Positions 26 through 29,120 are shown, counted from the stretch's first letter. The stretch: DNA of 29,120 nt from a virus (IMGVR_UViG_3300033571_022620:1-29120); one strand, 5' to 3'. Notes: generated by a model from the letters alone, not told the origin. Translations and numbers: made by a program.

Positions 26-274
26 TTATGATCCATAAATTTGTCTTATTTCTTGTTCTGATTTAGCTCCAGTAAAGCGATTTAATATTTGACCATTTTG
101 TACTAAAATAGTTGTAGGAATACCACTAACATGATATTGACTAACTAAATCTTTTTGTGTATCAACATCTATTTTTTGTACTGGTATTCCAGACATAGCT
201 ATTCTATCCATTATAGGTCCAAATGTTTTACATGGTACACACCATGTAGCTGAGAAGTATAAAAATTGTTTCAT
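26..274 (-). CDS. Thioredoxin-like protein
   Basis: This is a minimal thioredoxin-fold protein of 82 residues, shorter than the usual 105-110. The redox motif WCVPC lies at about residues 11-15 (canonical WCGPC, with Val for Gly), and the cis-proline loop follows as GIPT near residue 52. Thioredoxins reduce disulfides. A natural client in this genome would be the ribonucleotide reductase at 6838-8688, whose C-terminal cysteine pair needs an external reductant. That link is inference from gene content. It begins with ATG 4 bp after the stop of the QueD-like gene, so it belongs to the same tight minus-strand operon. A glutaredoxin is less likely because the CVPC motif follows Trp and the cis-Pro context is thioredoxin-like. 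Fold call is confident; client is not. Confidence 0.88.
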   Translation of the reverse strand: MKQFLYFSATWCVPCKTFGPIMDRIAMSGIPVQKIDVDTQKDLVSQYHVSGIPTTILVQNGQILNRFTGAKSEQEIRQIYGS

Positions 275-277
275 TGT

Positions 278-820
278 TTAAAATTCGTATTTTGAGTTTG
301 ATCGATATTGATTTAAATATAATTCTATATCTTCTTTAGGTATTGTTATAATCTTTTGTTCTTCATATAAAGCTGTATTTTTTTCATGTTCTCTAAATTC
401 AACTTGTACTACTTTAACTCTACCTTCTGTTTCTGCTTGAACAAAATCATTTAATTTATTATAAAAATATTCAGCAAAACGTTCTGCTCCTGTAGCTGGA
501 ATGATACGAAGTTGGATGAGTTCATTTTCTTCCATTAGTTGAAAACTTTCTAAATAGGGATCATCTTCGGCTACAATTGTAGTATGATCAAGCATATAAT
601 CTAACCATGCTTTAGGATTCATTCCATCAATAGTACCTTTAGCACGTTTCATACCTCCAAAATCCCAAACCCAATTACGTTCATCAAGTTCACCTTCAAA
701 CCACACCTTTAAACTTACTCCATAGCCATGAAGAAATCTACAATGTGTTCCTTCAGCTTTCCATTGACGGAATACTGTTGAATAACCATCAAATACTTTT
801 GTGCTTTTAAATTTTTTCAT
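278..820 (-). CDS. queD: QueD-like 6-carboxytetrahydropterin synthase (PTPS family)
   Basis: The 180-residue protein resembles COG0720 enzymes, which convert dihydroneopterin triphosphate to 6-carboxytetrahydropterin on the way to preQ0. Visible family marks are the catalytic Cys27 in HCRFLHG, the DFGGMK segment at 53-58, His79 in LDHTT and Glu113 in a TGAERFAEY context. The zinc site is unusual. Canonical QueD uses one His of an upstream xHxl motif plus both His of HGH; here Phe17 sits where the first is expected and the second motif is HGY (His31, Tyr33). His26, next to the catalytic Cys, could take part instead. The gene starts with ATG 4 bp after the phosphoribosyltransferase stop. Together with queC and a DpdA-like gene it suggests 7-deazaguanine synthesis for DNA modification. 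Family call is good; activity with the altered site is uncertain. Confidence 0.8.
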   Translation of the reverse strand: MKKFKSTKVFDGYSTVFRQWKAEGTHCRFLHGYGVSLKVWFEGELDERNWVWDFGGMKRAKGTIDGMNPKAWLDYMLDHTTIVAEDDPYLESFQLMEENELIQLRIIPATGAERFAEYFYNKLNDFVQAETEGRVKVVQVEFREHEKNTALYEEQKIITIPKEDIELYLNQYRSNSKYEF

Positions 821-824
821 AATA

Positions 825-1331
825 TTATTTATAATAAATTCCTTTTAAATGACGACTACCTCCATTTTCATCATCCATACCATAACCAAACATCCATCTA
901 TTTTCATCTGGAGGTAATGTCAATATATTTAATTCGTTTTTAAATTTGTCTTTGTATTTTTTAAGAGCAAAAATTCCTTCAACTGATTTAGCTCCTTTAT
1001 ATTCATAATGAACTTTTAAATATTCATATGTTAATCCTGAATCTAAAATGTCATCTATTAAATAAACGTGTTTATTTTCAACATCTACTCGTGAATCTAA
1101 CAACATTTTAAATCCAGTATTTTCAACTCCATCATATGACTTACAATTTACAAAATCACAAATAATATTCATGTTTTGTAATTCTTGAATTAAATCAGTA
1201 TAAAACATAAATCCACCTCTCATCACACCTATCATAACAAGTGGTTCAGTGTTATTATGTCTAAGAATAATTTTTTCAGATATTCTAATAATACCTGTTC
1301 TAATTTGATAAGGATTAAGTAATACTTTCAT
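825..1331 (-). CDS. Purine (hypoxanthine/guanine-type) phosphoribosyltransferase
   Basis: The 168-residue protein has the type I phosphoribosyltransferase layout: a VMRGGF turn near residue 37 and the PRPP-binding motif YLIDDILDSGLTY around residues 90-102. The length is near the 170-180 of hypoxanthine phosphoribosyltransferases, whose motif is VLIVDDIxDTGxT. These enzymes join a purine base to PRPP to give a nucleotide. The start ATG overlaps the stop of the upstream membrane-protein gene by four bases (ATGA), indicating translational coupling. Its place between queC and queD is notable: it could salvage host purines or handle a deazapurine base, but the sequence does not show substrate preference. 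The PRTase call is firm; hypoxanthine as substrate is a family-level guess. Confidence 0.82.
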   Translation of the reverse strand: MKVLLNPYQIRTGIIRISEKIILRHNNTEPLVMIGVMRGGFMFYTDLIQELQNMNIICDFVNCKSYDGVENTGFKMLLDSRVDVENKHVYLIDDILDSGLTYEYLKVHYEYKGAKSVEGIFALKKYKDKFKNELNILTLPPDENRWMFGYGMDDENGGSRHLKGIYYK

Positions 1332-1600
1332 ACTAGCTCTTCTAAAATTCCTATAATTTCACTTAATATAAGTATAAAAGTTGCGGTAGCCAAACTAAAA
1401 GGAATAAATCCATAACCTATAATGCGTATTCCTGATTTAATAAAACTAACATATTTATGCCATTTTTGATTTGGCATATGATTAAAATTAATTTCTTTAT
1501 GTGGTTCTTGCCATATTGGATTTTTTTCTCCTGTAAGTTCCTCATAATAAGGATTTAATTCACCTGTTTGAGGATCATGAGTTGGAATTTGTTTTTTCAT
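1328..1600 (-). CDS. Small membrane protein of unknown function
   Basis: I do not recognise this 90-residue protein. Residues 1-57 are polar, rich in Pro, Glu, Asn and His, and carry no signal peptide. Residues about 58-86 form one hydrophobic segment (start IRIIGYGFIPF) ending in an acidic ILEELV tail, so a single C-terminal membrane anchor with the N-terminal part in the cytoplasm is likely. Four-base overlaps at both ends (with the 71-residue gene upstream and the phosphoribosyltransferase downstream) place it in a translationally coupled operon with queC. No enzymatic motif is visible. Confidence 0.6.
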   Translation of the reverse strand: MKKQIPTHDPQTGELNPYYEELTGEKNPIWQEPHKEINFNHMPNQKWHKYVSFIKSGIRIIGYGFIPFSLATATFILILSEIIGILEELV

Positions 1601-1812
1601 ATTAATTCTTCTTCTTTAATTAACTCAGCTCCTGGATTAAATCGCAAGAGCCAAGCTGTATTTTCTTCAAATAAAGGTTTATATTCTGACCAATTGTAAG
1701 ACCATTGAATACAACCACTTTTTAATCCAGTGTATATTTCTCCTTCTTTATTAATCACAGCATACATCTGTGAAAAAGGACGAGATTTTTTATATTTTCT
1801 TTTGGTACTCAT
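1597..1812 (-). CDS. Hypothetical protein overlapping queC
   Basis: This is an unrecognised 71-residue protein. It starts with a basic stretch (STKRKYKKSR), continues with an aromatic-rich middle including YAVINKEGEIYTGL and QWSYNWSEY, and ends acidic (KEEELI). The pattern suggests a small soluble beta-rich domain. Its ATG lies inside the 3' end of queC (23-base overlap), and its stop overlaps the start of the next gene by four bases. Overlaps at both ends on the same strand argue that it is a real coupled gene. Function cannot be inferred beyond its position in the queC-queD operon. Confidence 0.6.
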   Translation of the reverse strand: MSTKRKYKKSRPFSQMYAVINKEGEIYTGLKSGCIQWSYNWSEYKPLFEENTAWLLRFNPGAELIKEEELI

Positions 1813-2662
1813 CTAAAACAGAAGAAACATATTCTTTTACATATTCCCAAGTCACTGGTCCAAATTCATCAGCATAACTAACTGGATCTTTTTTACCTAA
1901 TTTAATAAATGCTTCTACTCGTTCTACTGAACTTGCTGATTTATAATCTGAAAACCATTCTGTTGAAGCAACTGTTTCACCTTTTTCATCTTCCCAATAA
2001 ACAGTATGTTGAATTGGTTTGTAAGATGTATTTGTTTTAGAATAAATCTTGTCAAAATTTAAATGTAAAAATGTACAACATTTTTCTCCATCTTGTAAAA
2101 TACCAAATTTATCATTATTCAAGTAAGGAGTATAATATTTTACTTTTTCAGAACCCCAATTACCTAATTTAAATGCTTCAAAATCAGCATCTCTAAATTC
2201 TTGTCTACAATCAGGATAAATAGCATGATCACCTGCATGTATTCCCATTGCTATATCAACATTACAATTTTTAGCTTCTGCAATTGATAAAGCAACAGCT
2301 TGAATAATTGAACTGAAAATTTTATTACGATTAGGTACAACAGTTGCTTTCATATTTTCTTCAGCATAATGACCTTCAGGAACCTCAGCTCCACCAGTTA
2401 CTAAAGCTGAATTAAGCAATTTAGACAAACCATCAAGTTTAATTACTTGATATTTTACTTTAGGATAATATTGTTCATCTTCATGACCAGAATGAGAATT
2501 GATATATTTAACTAATTGCTTAGCTCGTTCAAGTTCAATTCTATGTTTTTGTCCATAATCAAAAGACAGTGCTGTTACTTCATAGCCATTAGCGAGTAGA
2601 TGAAGTAACAATGTGGAGCTGTCCATACCTCCACTTAATGACAATACTGCTTGTTTACTCAT
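1790..2662 (-). CDS. queC: QueC-like 7-cyano-7-deazaguanine (preQ0) synthase lacking zinc cysteines
   Basis: The 290-residue protein belongs to the PP-loop ATPase family that turns 7-carboxy-7-deazaguanine into preQ0 using ATP and ammonia. Visible marks are the PP-loop SGGMDS (residues 10-15), FDYGQKH (34-40), a VPNRNKIF segment near 109 and YPDCR (149-153). It is longer than E. coli QueC (about 230 residues). The C-terminal zinc site (usually TCY followed by CGxCxxC and Arg) is absent as cysteines: the matching segments read TSY (212-214) and SDYKSASSVER (238-248), with Ser or Asp at all four positions and an insertion of about 20 residues between. The surrounding framework (VERVEAF, KKDP) is kept, so this is a structured variant and not decay. 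It starts at ATG after a short A+T-rich gap and is followed by overlapping small genes. Family assignment is confident; the exact product is open. Confidence 0.88.
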   Translation of the reverse strand: MSKQAVLSLSGGMDSSTLLLHLLANGYEVTALSFDYGQKHRIELERAKQLVKYINSHSGHEDEQYYPKVKYQVIKLDGLSKLLNSALVTGGAEVPEGHYAEENMKATVVPNRNKIFSSIIQAVALSIAEAKNCNVDIAMGIHAGDHAIYPDCRQEFRDADFEAFKLGNWGSEKVKYYTPYLNNDKFGILQDGEKCCTFLHLNFDKIYSKTNTSYKPIQHTVYWEDEKGETVASTEWFSDYKSASSVERVEAFIKLGKKDPVSYADEFGPVTWEYVKEYVSSVLDEYQKKI

Positions 2663-2682
2663 TTTATTAATATAATTAATTT

Positions 2683-3171
2683 TTATTGTTTAGCCAAATA
2701 AATTCTTTCTTTTGTTCCTACTGTTTGATCATACCATTGTTCTTTATCCATATCATACCACCTATAAGGTAATGTAGGATCATCATTCCAACCATGAGCA
2801 CCATAATAAACAGCGTCTTTTCTTAACAAATTAGCTCTGTGTGATTTATGAAAATCATCATTACCAAACCAAACAGGCATAACAATTTCTTCATTAATCA
2901 CTTCTTTTTTCATGGTATTATTTTTACCTCTAGCAACCCAAACATCTATAGAGACATTTAAATAATGTTTTAATGCTGGTATATTATCTCTAAACATTTG
3001 GCTTATAGGATGGTTTATTCTTCCTTTAGAATAAGGTTTACCTTTTAATGTAGGTCTACCTTCTAAACCAGCTATAAGCTGATATGTTTCTACTCTTTGC
3101 TTTCCTAAACGTTTGTCATCTAGAGATTCAAGTGACTTTTTAAAGTCTGGATATGGTAAAAATGCTTGCAT
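2683..3171 (-). CDS. Pyr_excise/MSMEG_6728-like family protein
   Basis: The 162-residue protein matches the MSMEG_6728-like branch of the Pyr_excise family (PF03013, which also contains the T4 DenV pyrimidine-dimer glycosylase). Supporting features in order are an N-terminal FLPYPDF motif, LDDKRLGKQRVE at about 17-28, the HPISQMF segment, ALKHYLN, VWVARG, the PVWFG motif, HKSHRANLLRKDA and a C-terminal LPYRWY. These match the family pattern LPYPDF, LDxkRLGKQRvE, HP, SHRsxLlRKDp, LPYxWp. DenV repairs UV dimers, but the biochemical role of this branch is not established to my knowledge. The gene sits between queC and the DpdA-like gene, so a role in handling modified bases is possible. Family call is good; repair function is a guess. 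Confidence 0.72.
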   Translation of the reverse strand: MQAFLPYPDFKKSLESLDDKRLGKQRVETYQLIAGLEGRPTLKGKPYSKGRINHPISQMFRDNIPALKHYLNVSIDVWVARGKNNTMKKEVINEEIVMPVWFGNDDFHKSHRANLLRKDAVYYGAHGWNDDPTLPYRWYDMDKEQWYDQTVGTKERIYLAKQ

Positions 3172-3947
3172 TATTGAATAAAATTTTCTTTAAAATAATT
3201 AATGTTTTCTTTAGCTAATTGAATTTTATCTTCATCATTACTATTCATGATATCATCAATTTTAGTTTTTGGTTTAAACATAATACCATCTATATATTTA
3301 GTACCTTCAAAAGCTAAAGTAATTGGATTTGATGTATCACATGTTTTAATTTCAGGAAAATAAACACTAGGATAAAATTTAAATTCTGAAGCTAAATTAC
3401 AACCTAATAAATGATAATGAACATTTTCACTTAAACGATTTGTAATTTGCATATATGTTACAAACTCAATTCTACCTAATGTTTTTCTAGATTCAAAATG
3501 AGGATGACATGAAAAATCATCATAAAATTTAGCTAAATGATTAAGACCAATATATTTACATCCATCATCAACTAATTTATCATGTAAATCTTCAGCTTCA
3601 AATAAATTATTAGCTTGAATAACAACCATAATCTTTTTAGGATCAACTTTATTTTTCCATTGTAAATAATTTTCCCATGTTAAATCAGTATCATTCCAAG
3701 CATCTGGTGTAACGAAAACATCAGGATTAATTAAATTAATATATTCTGTTAATTCTATTTCAGTATGATTAACATTTTCAAACAATCCATTATCCATAAT
3801 AATAAATGAATCTTTTTGCTTTCTATATTCAAGCATAAAATTCAAATATTTTTCATTTTCTAATAAATGAGGCAAAATGTATTGATAATCATTAAAATTT
3901 AGACTATCTTCTAACATTGCAAAAGGTACTTCATGTGCTATTTTCAT
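3171..3947 (-). CDS. dpdA: DpdA/TGT-like deazaguanine transglycosylase
   Basis: The protein (258 residues from ATG 3947; an upstream GTG at 3971 would add 8) looks like a compact TIM-barrel of the tRNA-guanine transglycosylase/DpdA superfamily, which exchanges guanine for a 7-deazaguanine base. Supporting segments are IMDNGLF (50-56), in the place of the TGT DSGGFQ loop; VVIQANN (108-114) followed by GCKYIGL, resembling the TGT IVQGG and GYAIGGL strands; and LLGCN (180-184) followed by KTCDTSNP (201-208), in which Asp204 would be the nucleophile. It lacks the C-terminal CxCxxC...H zinc site of TGT. The ATG is chosen because it lies one base after the stop of the upstream AT-hook gene and avoids a 23-base overlap. 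Linkage to queC and queD supports a DNA-modification role. A distant TIM-barrel enzyme of another function remains possible. Confidence 0.68.
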   Translation of the reverse strand: MKIAHEVPFAMLEDSLNFNDYQYILPHLLENEKYLNFMLEYRKQKDSFIIMDNGLFENVNHTEIELTEYINLINPDVFVTPDAWNDTDLTWENYLQWKNKVDPKKIMVVIQANNLFEAEDLHDKLVDDGCKYIGLNHLAKFYDDFSCHPHFESRKTLGRIEFVTYMQITNRLSENVHYHLLGCNLASEFKFYPSVYFPEIKTCDTSNPITLAFEGTKYIDGIMFKPKTKIDDIMNSNDEDKIQLAKENINYFKENFIQ

Positions 3948-3948
3948 A

Positions 3949-4431
3949 TTATTGTTTTTTAGGTCTACCACGTCTTTTAGGAGCTACTCTCCTTATATTA
4001 TATTTTTTACTAGCGTAATTATAGTAATCTTTTATAGTTTTTCCAAATGATAAAATTTCTTCTTCTACTTTTATTTTATCAACTTCAAAATGATCATAAA
4101 TAGCGTTAATAAAATTGTCTAATCTATCTTTGTCATCAACTTCAAAATCATGCATTAATCGTTCATATTTACCTAATAGTAAAGAACCACGTTTAGCTCT
4201 ATCCCAATCTTCAAGTCCTGAATTATCACTGTCGTGTTTTTCCCAAAGAGCTGCTTGAGCCATCCAAAAATAAGGAGATGGTTCAAAATCACCATTGTTT
4301 ATTCTTTTTTCAATATGAGAAGATTTAGGAAGAGATTTTGGAACATCATAATTTCTCCACCATCTGAATTGATTGTATTTAAGTGGAGTAAGTTTTTTAA
4401 GATGTTTTTTTACAGTATCTCTTGAATGCAT
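3949..4431 (-). CDS. AT-hook-tailed protein of unknown function
   Basis: I do not recognise the body of this 160-residue protein. It is charged and probably helical, with aromatic clusters (FRWWRNYDVP near residue 22, SPYFWMAQAALWEKHD near 52). It ends in a strongly basic tail, RRVAPKRRGRPKKQ, containing an RGRPKK core typical of an AT-hook that binds the minor groove of A+T-rich DNA. It lies directly upstream of the DpdA-like gene (one base between stop and the preferred ATG), so it may be a DNA-binding partner for base exchange; that is inference. A terminator (4454-4480) separates it from the upstream structural gene, so it likely opens its own transcription unit. Confidence 0.62.
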   Translation of the reverse strand: MHSRDTVKKHLKKLTPLKYNQFRWWRNYDVPKSLPKSSHIEKRINNGDFEPSPYFWMAQAALWEKHDSDNSGLEDWDRAKRGSLLLGKYERLMHDFEVDDKDRLDNFINAIYDHFEVDKIKVEEEILSFGKTIKDYYNYASKKYNIRRVAPKRRGRPKKQ

Positions 4432-6837: not shown

Positions 6838-8688
6838 TTATACTACTTCACAAGCTCCACCAGCACATGCAGCCTGGTCAACTAAATTAGTACCATCACT
6901 AATTTCAACTACATTTTTTAAATCAACATTATGTAAATGTTTAGCCATTTCATCATATTGTTCTTTAGTAATTGTCTCAAATGGTGCTTGCTTATAACTT
7001 CCAAGATCTTCAGGTAAACAAGACATAGCTGAATATGAGTCTCTATTTTCCCACATCCACTTACCTACTTCTTTCCATTCACCTGCTTTGATATTAATAG
7101 TACAAGATACATTATTATAGTTTTCACCTTTTCTATGCCCTGGTCTTACCCACTCTAAATTAAAACGTTTAACTCGTTCTAATAAATCAAAAGTAGATTC
7201 AGATCTTGTCTTAGCACTTTCTGGAGCTGCTTGAGGAACTGAAATTACAGCTTGTTGATTTGGTTTAAACAAATCATCTTCAAGTAATTCTGGGTGGTAT
7301 AAAGAAAGGTATGTGTAAATAGCTTCATTTTTACCTACTCTAATACGACGAATATAATAATCATCATGCCAAGCATGAATACCACTTGAACAACCTAATA
7401 CTAATGAACTTGTACCAGATGGTTTAACTGTTGTTACACGAGCAGCTTTATTAATACCAATTAAAGCAGCTATTCTAGCATTTTCTTCTTTAGCTATTTT
7501 AGCAGCTGTTTTTAAATTTAATTTATCTAATTTTCCAGAAGCAATACCTGTAATACCAACACCTAATAAAGCATCACGTTCAGTTGTTTTTTTCCAAATA
7601 TCTCTTAAATAATGGAAATCTGTATATGAAGCTTGTAATGTACCGATAAATGCAGCTGCTTTAGCTCTAGCGTTAAAATCTTCTTGTGATTCAACATCAG
7701 TAGCGTTAATTTCACATAAATTACAAAATTGGTAAGGTCTTAAAGCAATTTCAGCACATGGATTAGTTCCAAAATCTTTATCATTAGAGAATAAAAATCC
7801 TGGTTCACCAGCGTTACTAGCTTCTACTTTTTCCCATAAATTCATAAATTCATCTTCTGTAATTTTATGACGGATAATAACAGCTGAGTTATTAGCTCTA
7901 CCACGTTGTGGATTTTCTTCCCACCAATTTCCAAATTTACATGTCAACATATCTTCATCATCAAAATCAAATAATGAAATTAATGCTGCTCTTCTAATAC
8001 CACCTGACAATACAGCATCAGCTAAATGACATAAAATGTCATGACATTCTAATGGTGTTAATTTAGAACCATTTTCTTTACGATCAAGAATCTTTTGTAC
8101 TTGGAACAATACTTCTTTTAAAGGTTCTGGTCCTGGTGCTTTTCCACCAGCTGTAATCAGATGAGCTCCTTTAGGTCTAATATCTCTAAAATCAAAACGT
8201 GGACGAGCACCACCTTTTAAATATGCTTTCATTAACATATGAACAGCATCAGCCCAACCTTCAATACTATCATTAACTAAATAGCGTTTTTCACGAGTTG
8301 GAATTTTAATTTCAGGTAATTTATCAACATGATGAGATTGAACTGAATAACCAACTCCACATCCGCTTAGTAACAAAAACATTGTTTCTGAGAATGATCT
8401 AAAATCATCAACTGGAAGGAATGAACAGTTAAAAATACGAGAGTTATTAATAGAAGCTGGTTTACCTGCAAATTGAAGTGATCTCATAGATGGTAATACT
8501 TTTTTATCATATACCATTTTATAAACTTCTTCAATTTCATCTTTTAAATGAGGAAACTTTTCTAAATGCATTTCCTTATTTCGGTCAACAATTTCTTCCC
8601 ATGTTTCACGACGTGAAAGTTCATCTTTATGCCTGGCATACTTCATATGAACTGTTATTTTGCTTAATATATCTTGTGTTGTATTCAT
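6838..8688 (-). CDS. nrdJ: Adenosylcobalamin-dependent (class II) ribonucleotide reductase
   Basis: The 616-residue protein is a ribonucleotide reductase catalytic subunit, reducing ribonucleotides to deoxyribonucleotides for replication. Visible motifs are LPSMRSLQFAG (65-75), NCSF with Cys88, LSGCGVGYS (107-115), the active-site NPCAEI (309-314) with the likely thiyl-radical Cys311, CNLCEIN just after, VTTVKPSGTSS in the middle, and a C-terminal CAGGACEVV that provides the shuttle cysteine pair. Overall shape and length fit monomeric class II enzymes of phages and not NrdA, and no NrdB-like subunit is present in the window. Class II enzymes need vitamin B12, so the host must make or import cobalamin. 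No B12 riboswitch was recognised upstream. Thioredoxin at 26-274 is a plausible reductant. The reductase call is very firm; class II is likely. Confidence 0.9.
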   Translation of the reverse strand: MNTTQDILSKITVHMKYARHKDELSRRETWEEIVDRNKEMHLEKFPHLKDEIEEVYKMVYDKKVLPSMRSLQFAGKPASINNSRIFNCSFLPVDDFRSFSETMFLLLSGCGVGYSVQSHHVDKLPEIKIPTREKRYLVNDSIEGWADAVHMLMKAYLKGGARPRFDFRDIRPKGAHLITAGGKAPGPEPLKEVLFQVQKILDRKENGSKLTPLECHDILCHLADAVLSGGIRRAALISLFDFDDEDMLTCKFGNWWEENPQRGRANNSAVIIRHKITEDEFMNLWEKVEASNAGEPGFLFSNDKDFGTNPCAEIALRPYQFCNLCEINATDVESQEDFNARAKAAAFIGTLQASYTDFHYLRDIWKKTTERDALLGVGITGIASGKLDKLNLKTAAKIAKEENARIAALIGINKAARVTTVKPSGTSSLVLGCSSGIHAWHDDYYIRRIRVGKNEAIYTYLSLYHPELLEDDLFKPNQQAVISVPQAAPESAKTRSESTFDLLERVKRFNLEWVRPGHRKGENYNNVSCTINIKAGEWKEVGKWMWENRDSYSAMSCLPEDLGSYKQAPFETITKEQYDEMAKHLHNVDLKNVVEISDGTNLVDQAACAGGACEVV

Positions 8689-8759: not shown

Positions 8760-9032
8760 TTAAGGTAATTTTTTCTCTAAAAGATCTGTCTTAATATATA
8801 AAACAAAATCTTTAGCTAATTTTCTATTGACACCAAGACAAAATTTATTAGCTGTCTCATTTAATAACTTCATAGTAACTCTATCTTTATGAGATTCATT
8901 AATAACATGTTTATATGTATCAAAAACTTCATTAAGTTTAACAGCTTCTACTTCATTATAATCACCATATGAGTAGTAATCTTCAAGATAACTCTCAATA
9001 TAATCATTGAATGTTTTTTTATTTAATAACAT
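8760..9032 (-). CDS. Hypothetical small acidic/helical protein
   Basis: This is an unrecognised 90-residue protein, rich in Tyr, Asp, Glu and Lys, probably all-helical, with the segment NDYIESYLEDYYSYGDYNEVEAV at its acidic N-terminal half and a more basic C-terminal half. Its start overlaps the 3' end of the DUF6884-like gene by 14 bases, which supports translation. It is followed by a 71-base A+T-rich gap before the reductase gene. No motif, signal peptide or membrane segment is seen. Confidence 0.6.
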   Translation of the reverse strand: MLLNKKTFNDYIESYLEDYYSYGDYNEVEAVKLNEVFDTYKHVINESHKDRVTMKLLNETANKFCLGVNRKLAKDFVLYIKTDLLEKKLP

Positions 9033-9504
9033 TTTTTAAATTTTTAATTTCGTTTAAAATAAATTTAGTTAATTTTTCAAATGACTCTTTTAACTTTTTA
9101 AGTAAAGCTGATTTTTGTTGGCCTATTCTTAATCCTTTAAAAGGTACTAATGTTTTTTTCATTTCTGGTTCAAGATATTTTCTATATTCATTACCAGCTA
9201 GAAAAACAAATTGGTCTTTATCAAGATTATAGCCTTTAGATTTTAATTGACTTATTACTTTTTCAGCCCATTCTTTTTTAGCATCAGCATCAAAGTTTTT
9301 TAAAGTTTTATCATAAGGTGCTATCTTTTTTTTCAATGGTAATAAATGATGTTTAGCAGATAAAATATAAATGTTACCATCATTTGTTAATTTTTTAGCA
9401 TATGCTAAATTCTTTTTAAACAAATCAGATACATAAAGATACTCAGCAGGAGCTGGTTTGTTTAATTTTGTCGCTACACATGCTACTAGTACAACTTTTG
9501 CCAT
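9019..9504 (-). CDS. DUF6884-like protein
   Basis: The 161-residue protein has the pattern I associate with DUF6884: an N-terminal VVLVACVATKLNKPAPAEYLY segment (hydrophobic strand, Cys, T-K-L, then P-A-x-x-L-Y), SDLFKKNLAYAK, IYILSAKHHLLPL near 45-57 and IAPYDKTL near 61-68, then a basic helical C-terminus. The second half of the strand-turn pattern (ILSAKxxL...PYDxTL) is the most telling. Its activity is not known to me. The domain faintly resembles the Cys-containing N-terminal strand of archaeosine-synthase-type proteins, which would be interesting next to a deazaguanine cluster, but that is speculation. It lies between the helicase gene and a small hypothetical gene, overlapping the latter by 14 bases. 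Confidence 0.65.
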   Translation of the reverse strand: MAKVVLVACVATKLNKPAPAEYLYVSDLFKKNLAYAKKLTNDGNIYILSAKHHLLPLKKKIAPYDKTLKNFDADAKKEWAEKVISQLKSKGYNLDKDQFVFLAGNEYRKYLEPEMKKTLVPFKGLRIGQQKSALLKKLKESFEKLTKFILNEIKNLKNVIK

Positions 9505-27275: not shown

Positions 27276-29120
27276 TTATTTAGCTATCCATAATAGACTA
27301 CTTCCTGATGGTTGTATCATATATGGTCCTTCTTTAAATGTTGTTAATACTGGCAAAGTAATTCTAGTACTTCCAAATCTAACAGTTGTTGTTCCTGTTT
27401 GAACTGTAGAACTTCCTGTTTGATAAACTTCTAAACCTGGGTATCTAGTTAATGCTATTCTTTGAGTGTATGTCATTACAGGCATTCTAAAACCACCTGT
27501 TGTAGAATTAACATGTAATGCTATAGAAGCACTAGGTGTTGTATTGATACCAACTTGACTACCTGTTACTACAAATGAGTTAGTTCTAGAATTATCAGCT
27601 GTTCCATTACCAACAATAAATTGAGCATTGTTTAATAATGAACTTGTAATATTAAATTTACCTACTACTGTTTGATAATTACCTCCAGCTACAGTTCCAT
27701 ATCCTTCAGTGTGAGAATAATCTCCATATGTTGTTGTTTGGTATCCTTCAGCATGAGAACTAGTACCATATGTTGTTGTTTGATATCCTTCAGCATGTGA
27801 AAAAGAACCTGAAGATATAGAATCAAATCCTTCAACATGTGAATAATCTCCATAAGCTACAGTGCTAGCACCTTCAGCGTGAGAGCTAGATCCATATGTT
27901 GTTGTACCATCACCTTCTGCATGTGAGTATGATCCAGAAGTCACTGTAACACTTCCTTCAGCATGAGACCAAGAAGCATATGTTTGTGTTCCATAACCTT
28001 CAGCATGAGACCAATAACCACGAGTTTTAGTTTCATTACCTTCAACATGGGATCCATAAGCATAAGCTATATTGTAACAACCTTCAGCATGTGAGTGTTC
28101 ACCTATAGTAATGTTTTGGTCACCTTCAGCATGTGAATCTAATCCAACAGCTGTATTAAATTTACCTTCAGCATGTGAATAGTTTCCTTGAGCTGTGTTA
28201 TTTCTACCTTCAGCATGTGAATAAGAACCTGAAGCTAAATTATTTGCTCCTTCAGCATGAGCACCAGTTCCATTAGCAGTATTATTATTACCTTCAACAT
28301 GAGCGTAATTTACTGGTAGGAATGTTCCTGTATTAACATCTAAAAATCTTATAAAGTTAGCATTACCTTCAGCATGTGAATAACTACCACTTATTATATT
28401 ATTATAACCTTCAGCATGTGAACTAATACCATTTATTGTATTAGCTTCACCTTCAATATGGTTATATTTACCACCTATTATAAGGTTATTATAACCTTCA
28501 GCATGTGAACCTGTATCAGGAATTGCTTCTATTGTATATGAAATTGTATTTTTTTCTCCTTCAACGTGAGAATATAATCCATAGTTTGTATTATTATAAC
28601 CTTCGGCGTGAGCATAACTTCCATTAAATGGAGATGACTCATCAACTATATTTTTATATCCATGAACAAAAGCAAATGGAGCTGATGCTGTTAAAGCTCT
28701 ACCATGAGTAAATGTTGGGCCCGCGCTAAATGAACCTGTAATATTCCTTTGATTACCTTGTAATGAAGGTAAACTAACATCTAAACTACAAGATGTATGG
28801 TTATCTCTTGTTGTAACATCTTGCCAATCATCTGTTGGTACAAAAGAACCTGTATTAATTGTTACTAAAACAGCATTTGAACCACTATCAGTGACAACTA
28901 CAGCATTACCAGCAAAATTCATTTTATTTACACCAGTGTATCCTCCAACTAATGTTCCTTCATCATAAACATTACTAAATGAAGTTCCTGAAGTACCACT
29001 TGAACCTGATGTACCAGCTGCTCCTGATGTACCTGAAGAACCTGATGTACCAGCTGCTCCTGATGTACCTGAAGAACCTGATGTACCAGCTGCTCCTGAT
29101 GTACCTGAAGAACCTGATGT
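27276..29120 (-). CDS. Trimeric tail fibre with collagen-like and YadA-like repeats (5' end outside window)
   Basis: The frame has an ATG at 28922 but stays open in frame from there to the right edge (29120), so the gene is truncated by the window and the ATG is internal. The upstream part is a Gly-X-Y-like array of GTS, GSS and GAA triplets (collagen-like). Downstream there are about 21 copies of a [S/A/N]H[A/V/I/T]EG motif spaced mostly 14 residues, the pattern of YadA-type left-handed beta-roll heads (for example SHAEGYNT, SHAEGRNNTAQGN). The C-terminal part has a fibre tail (FRMPVMTYTQR, GLEVYQTG). Such proteins are trimers. No chaperone-type peptidase motif is seen. Adhesion to the host is the expected role. 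It precedes the glycosyltransferase, which may modify it. Confidence 0.85.
   Translation of the reverse strand, partial: TSGSSGTSGAAGTSGSSGTSGAAGTSGSSGTSGAAGTSGSSGTSGTSFSNVYDEGTLVGGYTGVNKMNFAGNAVVVTDSGSNAVLVTINTGSFVPTDDWQDVTTRDNHTSCSLDVSLPSLQGNQRNITGSFSAGPTFTHGRALTASAPFAFVHGYKNIVDESSPFNGSYAHAEGYNNTNYGLYSHVEGEKNTISYTIEAIPDTGSHAEGYNNLIIGGKYNHIEGEANTINGISSHAEGYNNIISGSYSHAEGNANFIRFLDVNTGTFLPVNYAHVEGNNNTANGTGAHAEGANNLASGSYSHAEGRNNTAQGNYSHAEGKFNTAVGLDSHAEGDQNITIGEHSHAEGCYNIAYAYGSHVEGNETKTRGYWSHAEGYGTQTYASWSHAEGSVTVTSGSYSHAEGDGTTTYGSSSHAEGASTVAYGDYSHVEGFDSISSGSFSHAEGYQTTTYGTSSHAEGYQTTTYGDYSHTEGYGTVAGGNYQTVVGKFNITSSLLNNAQFIVGNGTADNSRTNSFVVTGSQVGINTTPSASIALHVNSTTGGFRMPVMTYTQRIALTRYPGLEVYQTGSSTVQTGTTTVRFGSTRITLPVLTTFKEGPYMIQPSGSSLLWIAK
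29005..29120 (-). repeat. 36-bp perfect tandem repeat in the fibre gene
   Basis: Three consecutive identical 36-base copies (29005-29040, 29041-29076, 29077-29112) and the first eight bases of a fourth (29113-29120) encode a 12-residue unit of the type SSGTSGAAGTSG. The array continues beyond the window. The copies are identical at the DNA level, including silent positions, which points to recent duplication or ongoing length change. Confidence 0.95.

Follow-up and report, generated by a model that had tools for sequence, protein, structure and literature searches.

A CP220-type DpdA cluster in a T4-like phage of uncultured bacteria, with a guanine phosphoribosyltransferase that may salvage the base expelled from DNA

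Why would a phage encode, side by side, enzymes of 7-deazaguanine synthesis, a transglycosylase-like protein and a phosphoribosyltransferase (PRT) of guanine type, and could these act together as one pathway? The window considered here, i.e., the whole stretch of DNA analysed, is a complete linear 29,120-bp IMG/VR entry (G+C 28.8%) from a T4-like phage of uncultured bacteria. A helicase, UvsX, a gp32-like protein and tail genes are encoded to the right of the cluster, and nucleotide-metabolism genes (RNR, thioredoxin, ThyX and a dUTPase-like gene) lie nearby. The following features are relevant:

26..274, minus strand: thioredoxin-like protein (PF00085, 2.5e-17)
278..820, minus strand: QueD-like CPH4 synthase (PF01242, 3.6e-15; phrog_2389, 2.4e-39)
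825..1331, minus strand: HGPRT-type phosphoribosyltransferase (PF00156, 5.5e-16; TIGR01203 HGPRTase, 6.8e-26)
1790..2662, minus strand: QueC (CDG to amide/nitrile), zinc-cysteine-free variant (PF06508, 4e-39; TIGR00364, 8e-38)
2683..3171, minus strand: MSMEG_6728/Pyr_excise family protein, encoded between DpdA and QueC (NF038085, 1.1e-32, exceeding the curated cut-off)
3171..3971, minus strand: putative DpdA3-like DNA guanine transglycosylase (sole family match phrog_19058, function unknown, 6.6e-26)
3949..4431, minus strand: DpdA-adjacent ORF with a C-terminal AT-hook-like tail, RRGRPKKQ

A preliminary description had drawn together the QueD, QueC, DpdA/TGT-like, AT-hook, Pyr_excise-like and PRT genes of this locus, and the grouping holds: every cluster gene is an intact minus-strand ORF, and gene order is kept across independent IMG/VR contigs, so the cluster is not a product of chance. 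At least 376 relatives are present in IMG/VR.

The frame of the DpdA-like protein yields 266 aa from a GTG or 258 aa from an internal ATG (3171-3947); the 258-residue start suits most relatives, and the contigs L002-L004 start 8 codons upstream (266 aa). An AlphaFold model built from 15 relatives (mean pLDDT 91.1, pTM 0.89) had as its best Foldseek match in the PDB the bacterial TGT 6rkt (E 6e-6), the sole match with E < 0.001, and its matches among viral structures comprised a phiST protein, R9TGF0 of Vibrio phage nt-1 and several proteins annotated as queuine tRNA-ribosyltransferases. The 266-aa protein, earlier proposed in its 258-residue form to be DpdA/TGT-like, does not fall outside that fold, as structure prediction gives it a TGT/DpdA fold, i.e., a TGT-type TIM barrel. 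In an alignment of 16 sequences reaching down to 24% identity, D60, D90, Q119, H187, G190 and D212 are invariant; by order and motif, without superposition, D60, D90, Q119 and D212 would fit the general-base, base-recognition and nucleophile positions of TGT and are the putative catalytic/base-binding residues. The C-terminal CxCxxC...H zinc site of tRNA TGT is absent from all 16 aligned relatives.

Within the DpdA/TGT enzymes, the closest characterised kin is the DpdA of Campylobacter phage CP220 (32.5% identity over 90%, E 8e-25). A tblastn search of 50,697 phage records matched only Campylobacter firehammerviruses, Flavobacterium phage immuto (28%, to a protein that carries a DpdA annotation) and, weakly, Bacillus BSP7-type phages, to which a profile search added Cellulophaga phage phiST, Chryseobacterium phage MA9V-3 and Brevundimonas phages MaInes and StAshley. 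The same profile did not clearly recognise the DpdA of phage Iggy (2.8 bits and E 0.058 among 14 proteins) or E. coli Tgt, and when the family was aligned by hhalign with individual TGT sequences, including E. coli Tgt, the alignment was weak. As neither Iggy DpdA nor E. coli Tgt is clearly recognised, sequence comparison places the enzyme with CP220 DpdA, in a subfamily that we take to be DpdA3 (the name being from Cui et al. 2023). The cluster is thus a further member of the CP220-type DpdA systems and extends them to T4-like phages of uncultured bacteria.

Two enzymes of the synthesis pathway, QueE and FolE, had been suspected to lie to the left of the window, and this is where a sister contig has them: L003 (81% identical) reads DpdA - MSMEG_6728 - QueC - PRT - QueD - thioredoxin - QueE - FolE, and the window ends after thioredoxin, i.e., before the QueE and FolE positions of L003. 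By this analogy, both genes are very likely to be found immediately left of base 1. FolE was found in 12 of 20 relatives and QueC in 16, and contigs as long as 176 kb again carry the same gene set. None of the IMG/VR relatives searched, the 176-kb G007 among them, has a gene that scores above the QueF cut-off; with QueC as the last synthesis enzyme, the inserted base should therefore be preQ0 or ADG. CP220 and CPt10 DNA contains dADG (PMC8306585), and the replacement of dG in firehammerviruses is complete (PMC10273834). These precedents favour dADG here, with dPreQ0 next, and by the same analogy the guanine of the window phage's DNA may be replaced completely, which would protect it from restriction. 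Together, the TGT fold, the kinship to the CP220 and immuto DpdAs and the presence of QueE and FolE in L003 uphold the initial reading of the locus as a 7-deazaguanine DNA-modification cluster.

The same description had pointed to atypical metal sites as a sign that the base or route might differ. The atypical sites are real. Compared to the E. coli K-12 enzymes, QueC retains the SGGMDS PP-loop and YPDCR with all four zinc Cys gone, and QueD retains its Cys, Asp-His (LDH) and Glu, with one of three zinc His left (the first His is changed to Phe and HGH to HGY); a conserved His precedes the catalytic Cys of QueD. A zinc site is likewise missing from DpdA. The suggested departure in base or route is weakened by how widespread these changes are: CxxCxxC occurs in none of 58 environmental QueC relatives, HGY in 40 of 42 environmental QueD relatives, the QueD change also in Iggy, ART, phiST and phiSM, and the loss of QueC zinc Cys also in Iggy and ART. 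Judged by these sequences, they are recurrent phage variants, and since DpdA1 phages have them too, they do not by themselves indicate a different base. A wholly zinc-free pathway of QueD, QueC and DpdA was considered and rejected, as L003 FolE retains its Cys/His/Cys ligands; a role of the QueD-like protein as a CDG decarboxylase is judged unlikely, given a single PTPS gene per relative genome, beside FolE and QueE. A phmmer search of QueD against the PDB gave no match. QueD of phage 9g complements E. coli (PMC6884629), but it has canonical zinc ligands, and its complementation does not validate the variant. Activity of QueC and QueD despite the lost ligands is a prediction, and how enzymes so poor in zinc ligands work is a separate biochemical question.

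The PRT matches HGPRT structures in the PDB (E 3e-17); its TIGR01203 score lies below the curated cut-off, which the homologue in L009 passes. Invariant in 12 homologues are the PRPP loop DDILDSG with its catalytic Asp, K124, W146, D153 and R160, and from these residues the enzyme is assigned as a 6-oxopurine PRT of HGPRT type. In the HGPRT mechanism, this Asp acts on N7 of the purine. A second PRT type found in DpdA3-like clusters is Gpt/XGPRT-like (NF006613; structural matches to Gpt of E. coli and of archaea; WIVYPWE in most). Guanine is a substrate of both HGPRT and Gpt enzymes.

How tightly are these PRTs linked to the DpdA3-like enzyme? The 95 loci with window-type DpdA form 31 clusters at 80% DpdA identity, of which 19 hold both FolE and QueE and are here called complete. 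A PRT is encoded in 13 of these 19, of HGPRT type (Hpt) in seven and Gpt type in six, with none carrying both, and the PRT genes adjoin FolE, QueD, QueE or QueC. Of 20 mostly large records, 14 have a PRT. Among cultured phages, a Gpt-type gene is present in all firehammerviruses with window-type DpdA (each of the 14 Campylobacter records that encode it comes from a PRT-bearing phage), immuto, phiST and relatives, and Brevundimonas phages MaInes and StAshley. No DpdA1 phage appears among the PRT matches listed, although DpdA1 is carried by 233 records (60 of them listed), and none was found when Iggy, phiSM and ART were searched directly for a PRT. With genus taken as the first word of the organism name, a rough label under which records of one genus are not independent, a PRT occurs in 4 of 6 genera having window-type DpdA versus 0 of 39 DpdA1 genera among the matches listed (p = 1e-4). 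The association has exceptions on both sides. Cyanophage BUCT-ZZ01 has a Gpt-type gene between QueE and QueD/FolE and no window-type DpdA, and CC_R7 has a PRT with no DpdA detected; Chryseobacterium phage MA9V-3 has the DpdA with no detected PRT. As about one-third of complete clusters and MA9V-3 are without a detected one, the PRT is not essential to DpdA3-like systems; it is probably a functional part of the cluster and not a mere neighbour.

Comparison with characterised or cultured systems places the window more exactly. The Campylobacter Firehammervirus phages CP220 and CPt10 likewise have FolE, QueD, QueC, a same-family DpdA (32%) and a guanine PRT; in CP220, however, the genes are scattered rather than clustered, QueC and QueD retain the zinc ligands that the window enzymes have lost, and the PRT is Gpt instead of HGPRT. 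Flavobacterium phage immuto (Immutovirus), the closest relative in culture, shares clustered QueD, QueE, PRT and FolE and a same-family DpdA (28%), and its QueD and QueC, 70% and 63% identical to those of the window, display the same metal-site losses. It differs in its added QueF and formyltransferase, from which a preQ1-type derivative is probable in immuto, and in its Gpt-type PRT and other surrounding genes. Cellulophaga phage phiST has a QueD 66% identical, a same-family DpdA (HMM 2e-27) and a Gpt-type guanine PRT, but no QueC is annotated in its QueD-QueE-FolE-DpdA group and the PRT lies about 20 kb off. The DpdA1 phages (9g, CAjan, Iggy) also combine FolE, QueD, QueE and QueC with a TGT-type enzyme, and Iggy and ART have QueD/QueC metal-site variants as in the window; unlike the window, their DpdA is not clearly related in sequence, no guanine PRT was found for them among the matches listed and their replacement is partial.

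Our preferred reading, to which we assign a probability of roughly 0.6, is that the cluster makes a 7-deazaguanine and swaps it into phage DNA for guanine, with the PRT salvaging the guanine expelled. FolE, QueD and QueE would convert GTP to CDG, and QueC would turn CDG into either 7-amido-7-deazaguanine or preQ0, which the DpdA3-like enzyme would then put in place of guanine in finished, replicated DNA. As in CP220, most or all guanines would probably be exchanged in this way. Each TGT-type exchange would free one guanine, i.e., some 50,000 per genome copy (a 176-kb genome at 28.8% G+C contains about 50,700 guanines); complete replacement over a burst would thus free millions, while each new base would cost one GTP via FolE. 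The HGPRT-type enzyme would combine guanine with PRPP to give GMP, feeding both dGTP and the GTP used by FolE. Because two guanine PRT subfamilies have repeatedly been recruited to one neighbourhood, salvage of the guanine expelled by DpdA best explains the presence of these genes.

Other readings of the same genes have to be weighed against this one. It is unlikely, in our estimate, that the pathway operates as described with DpdA modifying few guanines, as in DpdA1 phages, and with the PRT being ordinary nucleotide-metabolism cargo. Large T4-like phages do carry many nucleotide genes, as the RNR, thioredoxin, ThyX and dUTPase-like genes near this cluster illustrate, and some DpdA3 relatives have no PRT; moreover, when the DpdA of phage 9g was tested on plasmids, about 5-9% of G was modified (PMC6884629). 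Yet the nearest characterised DpdA comes from phages whose replacement is complete (PMC10273834), and cargo would sit poorly with PRT genes that are nearly absent in other phage records (HGPRT and Gpt alike) yet adjoin FolE, QueE or QueC.

Two further readings would assign the cluster another product. That the PRT has the 7-deazaguanine base as its own substrate, giving a nucleotide for the polymerase before or during replication, would accord with the adjacency of its gene and with early proposals that Campylobacter phages use modified dGTP (PMC6884629). This we consider improbable: a DpdA-family transglycosylase is present, the PRT residues match those of 6-oxopurine PRTs, and the enzyme retains the Asp acting on purine N7, an atom missing from 7-deazaguanines. 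An increase of queuosine in host tRNA, in place of DNA modification, has been proposed for phages with preQ0 genes but without DpdA (PMC6884629); for a cluster with a CP220-type DpdA transglycosylase, which has neither the zinc site of tRNA TGT nor a close sequence match to it, such a role is very hard to credit.

Exchange with guanine salvage may have a more general form, namely that phages replacing essentially all guanine in their DNA through base exchange carry their own guanine PRT, recruited at least twice from different subfamilies (HGPRT, Gpt), to recycle the expelled base; to this we give even odds. Few known DNA modifications are as extreme as complete post-replicative guanine replacement, and the guanine supply problem that it raises is not addressed in the literature searched. 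A linked guanine-salvage gene offers a testable answer: whole-genome base exchange would be a closed, phage-encoded guanine cycle, and a guanine PRT would be a candidate genomic marker by which to tell complete from partial replacement. The salvage component is the new element here and is not remarked on in the literature searched, where we found no paper linking a phage guanine PRT with 7-deazaguanine; this does not prove that none exists.

Regarding the remaining neighbours, the Pyr_excise-like gene is restricted to the window, L002, L003 and L004. Homologues of the AT-hook-tailed ORF lie directly upstream of DpdA at many loci; the tail itself is confined to close relatives and is missing from the homologues in L045, L040 and L046, and a role of the AT-hook as a targeting module for DpdA was rejected on this basis. 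The thioredoxin-like gene is common in DpdA3-like clusters and lies between QueD and QueE in L002 and L003.

Across the DpdA loci compared, the 616-aa ribonucleotide reductase upstream of DpdA keeps its position in most relatives, the gene that separates DpdA from QueC, a member of the MSMEG_6728/Pyr_excise family, is found in the closest relatives only, and a DUF6884 protein is present in 11 loci. In the window, these are:
2683-3171, minus strand, MSMEG_6728/Pyr_excise family gene
6838-8688, minus strand, ribonucleotide reductase
9019-9504, minus strand, DUF6884 protein (family match 5e-43)
The DUF6884 protein is related to YaaA and is possibly a DNA-damage protein (cf. PMC11701544).

Two contigs encode ~300-aa ORFs (G022:C1 near 7509; G023:C1 near 105331) with weak matches to the phosphoribosyltransferase profile; these are perhaps PRPP synthetases, which would then provide PRPP for salvage. 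Synechococcus phage BUCT-ZZ01 (L140) encodes:
7001-7462, Gpt-type phosphoribosyltransferase, flanked by QueE and QueD/FolE
No CP220-type DpdA was detected in this cyanophage, which may encode one more divergent enzyme for the insertion step.

In some clusters, a MazG/PRA-PH-like pyrophosphohydrolase gene adjoins FolE and DpdA; the products from two loci are 77% identical to each other:
L021, 11279-11803
L045, 12692-13180

At the right edge of the window lies:
27276-29120, minus strand, tail-fibre-like protein
Its SHAEG/HAEGY repeats are numerous, and its collagen-like SGTSGAAGTSGS end continues past the contig edge.
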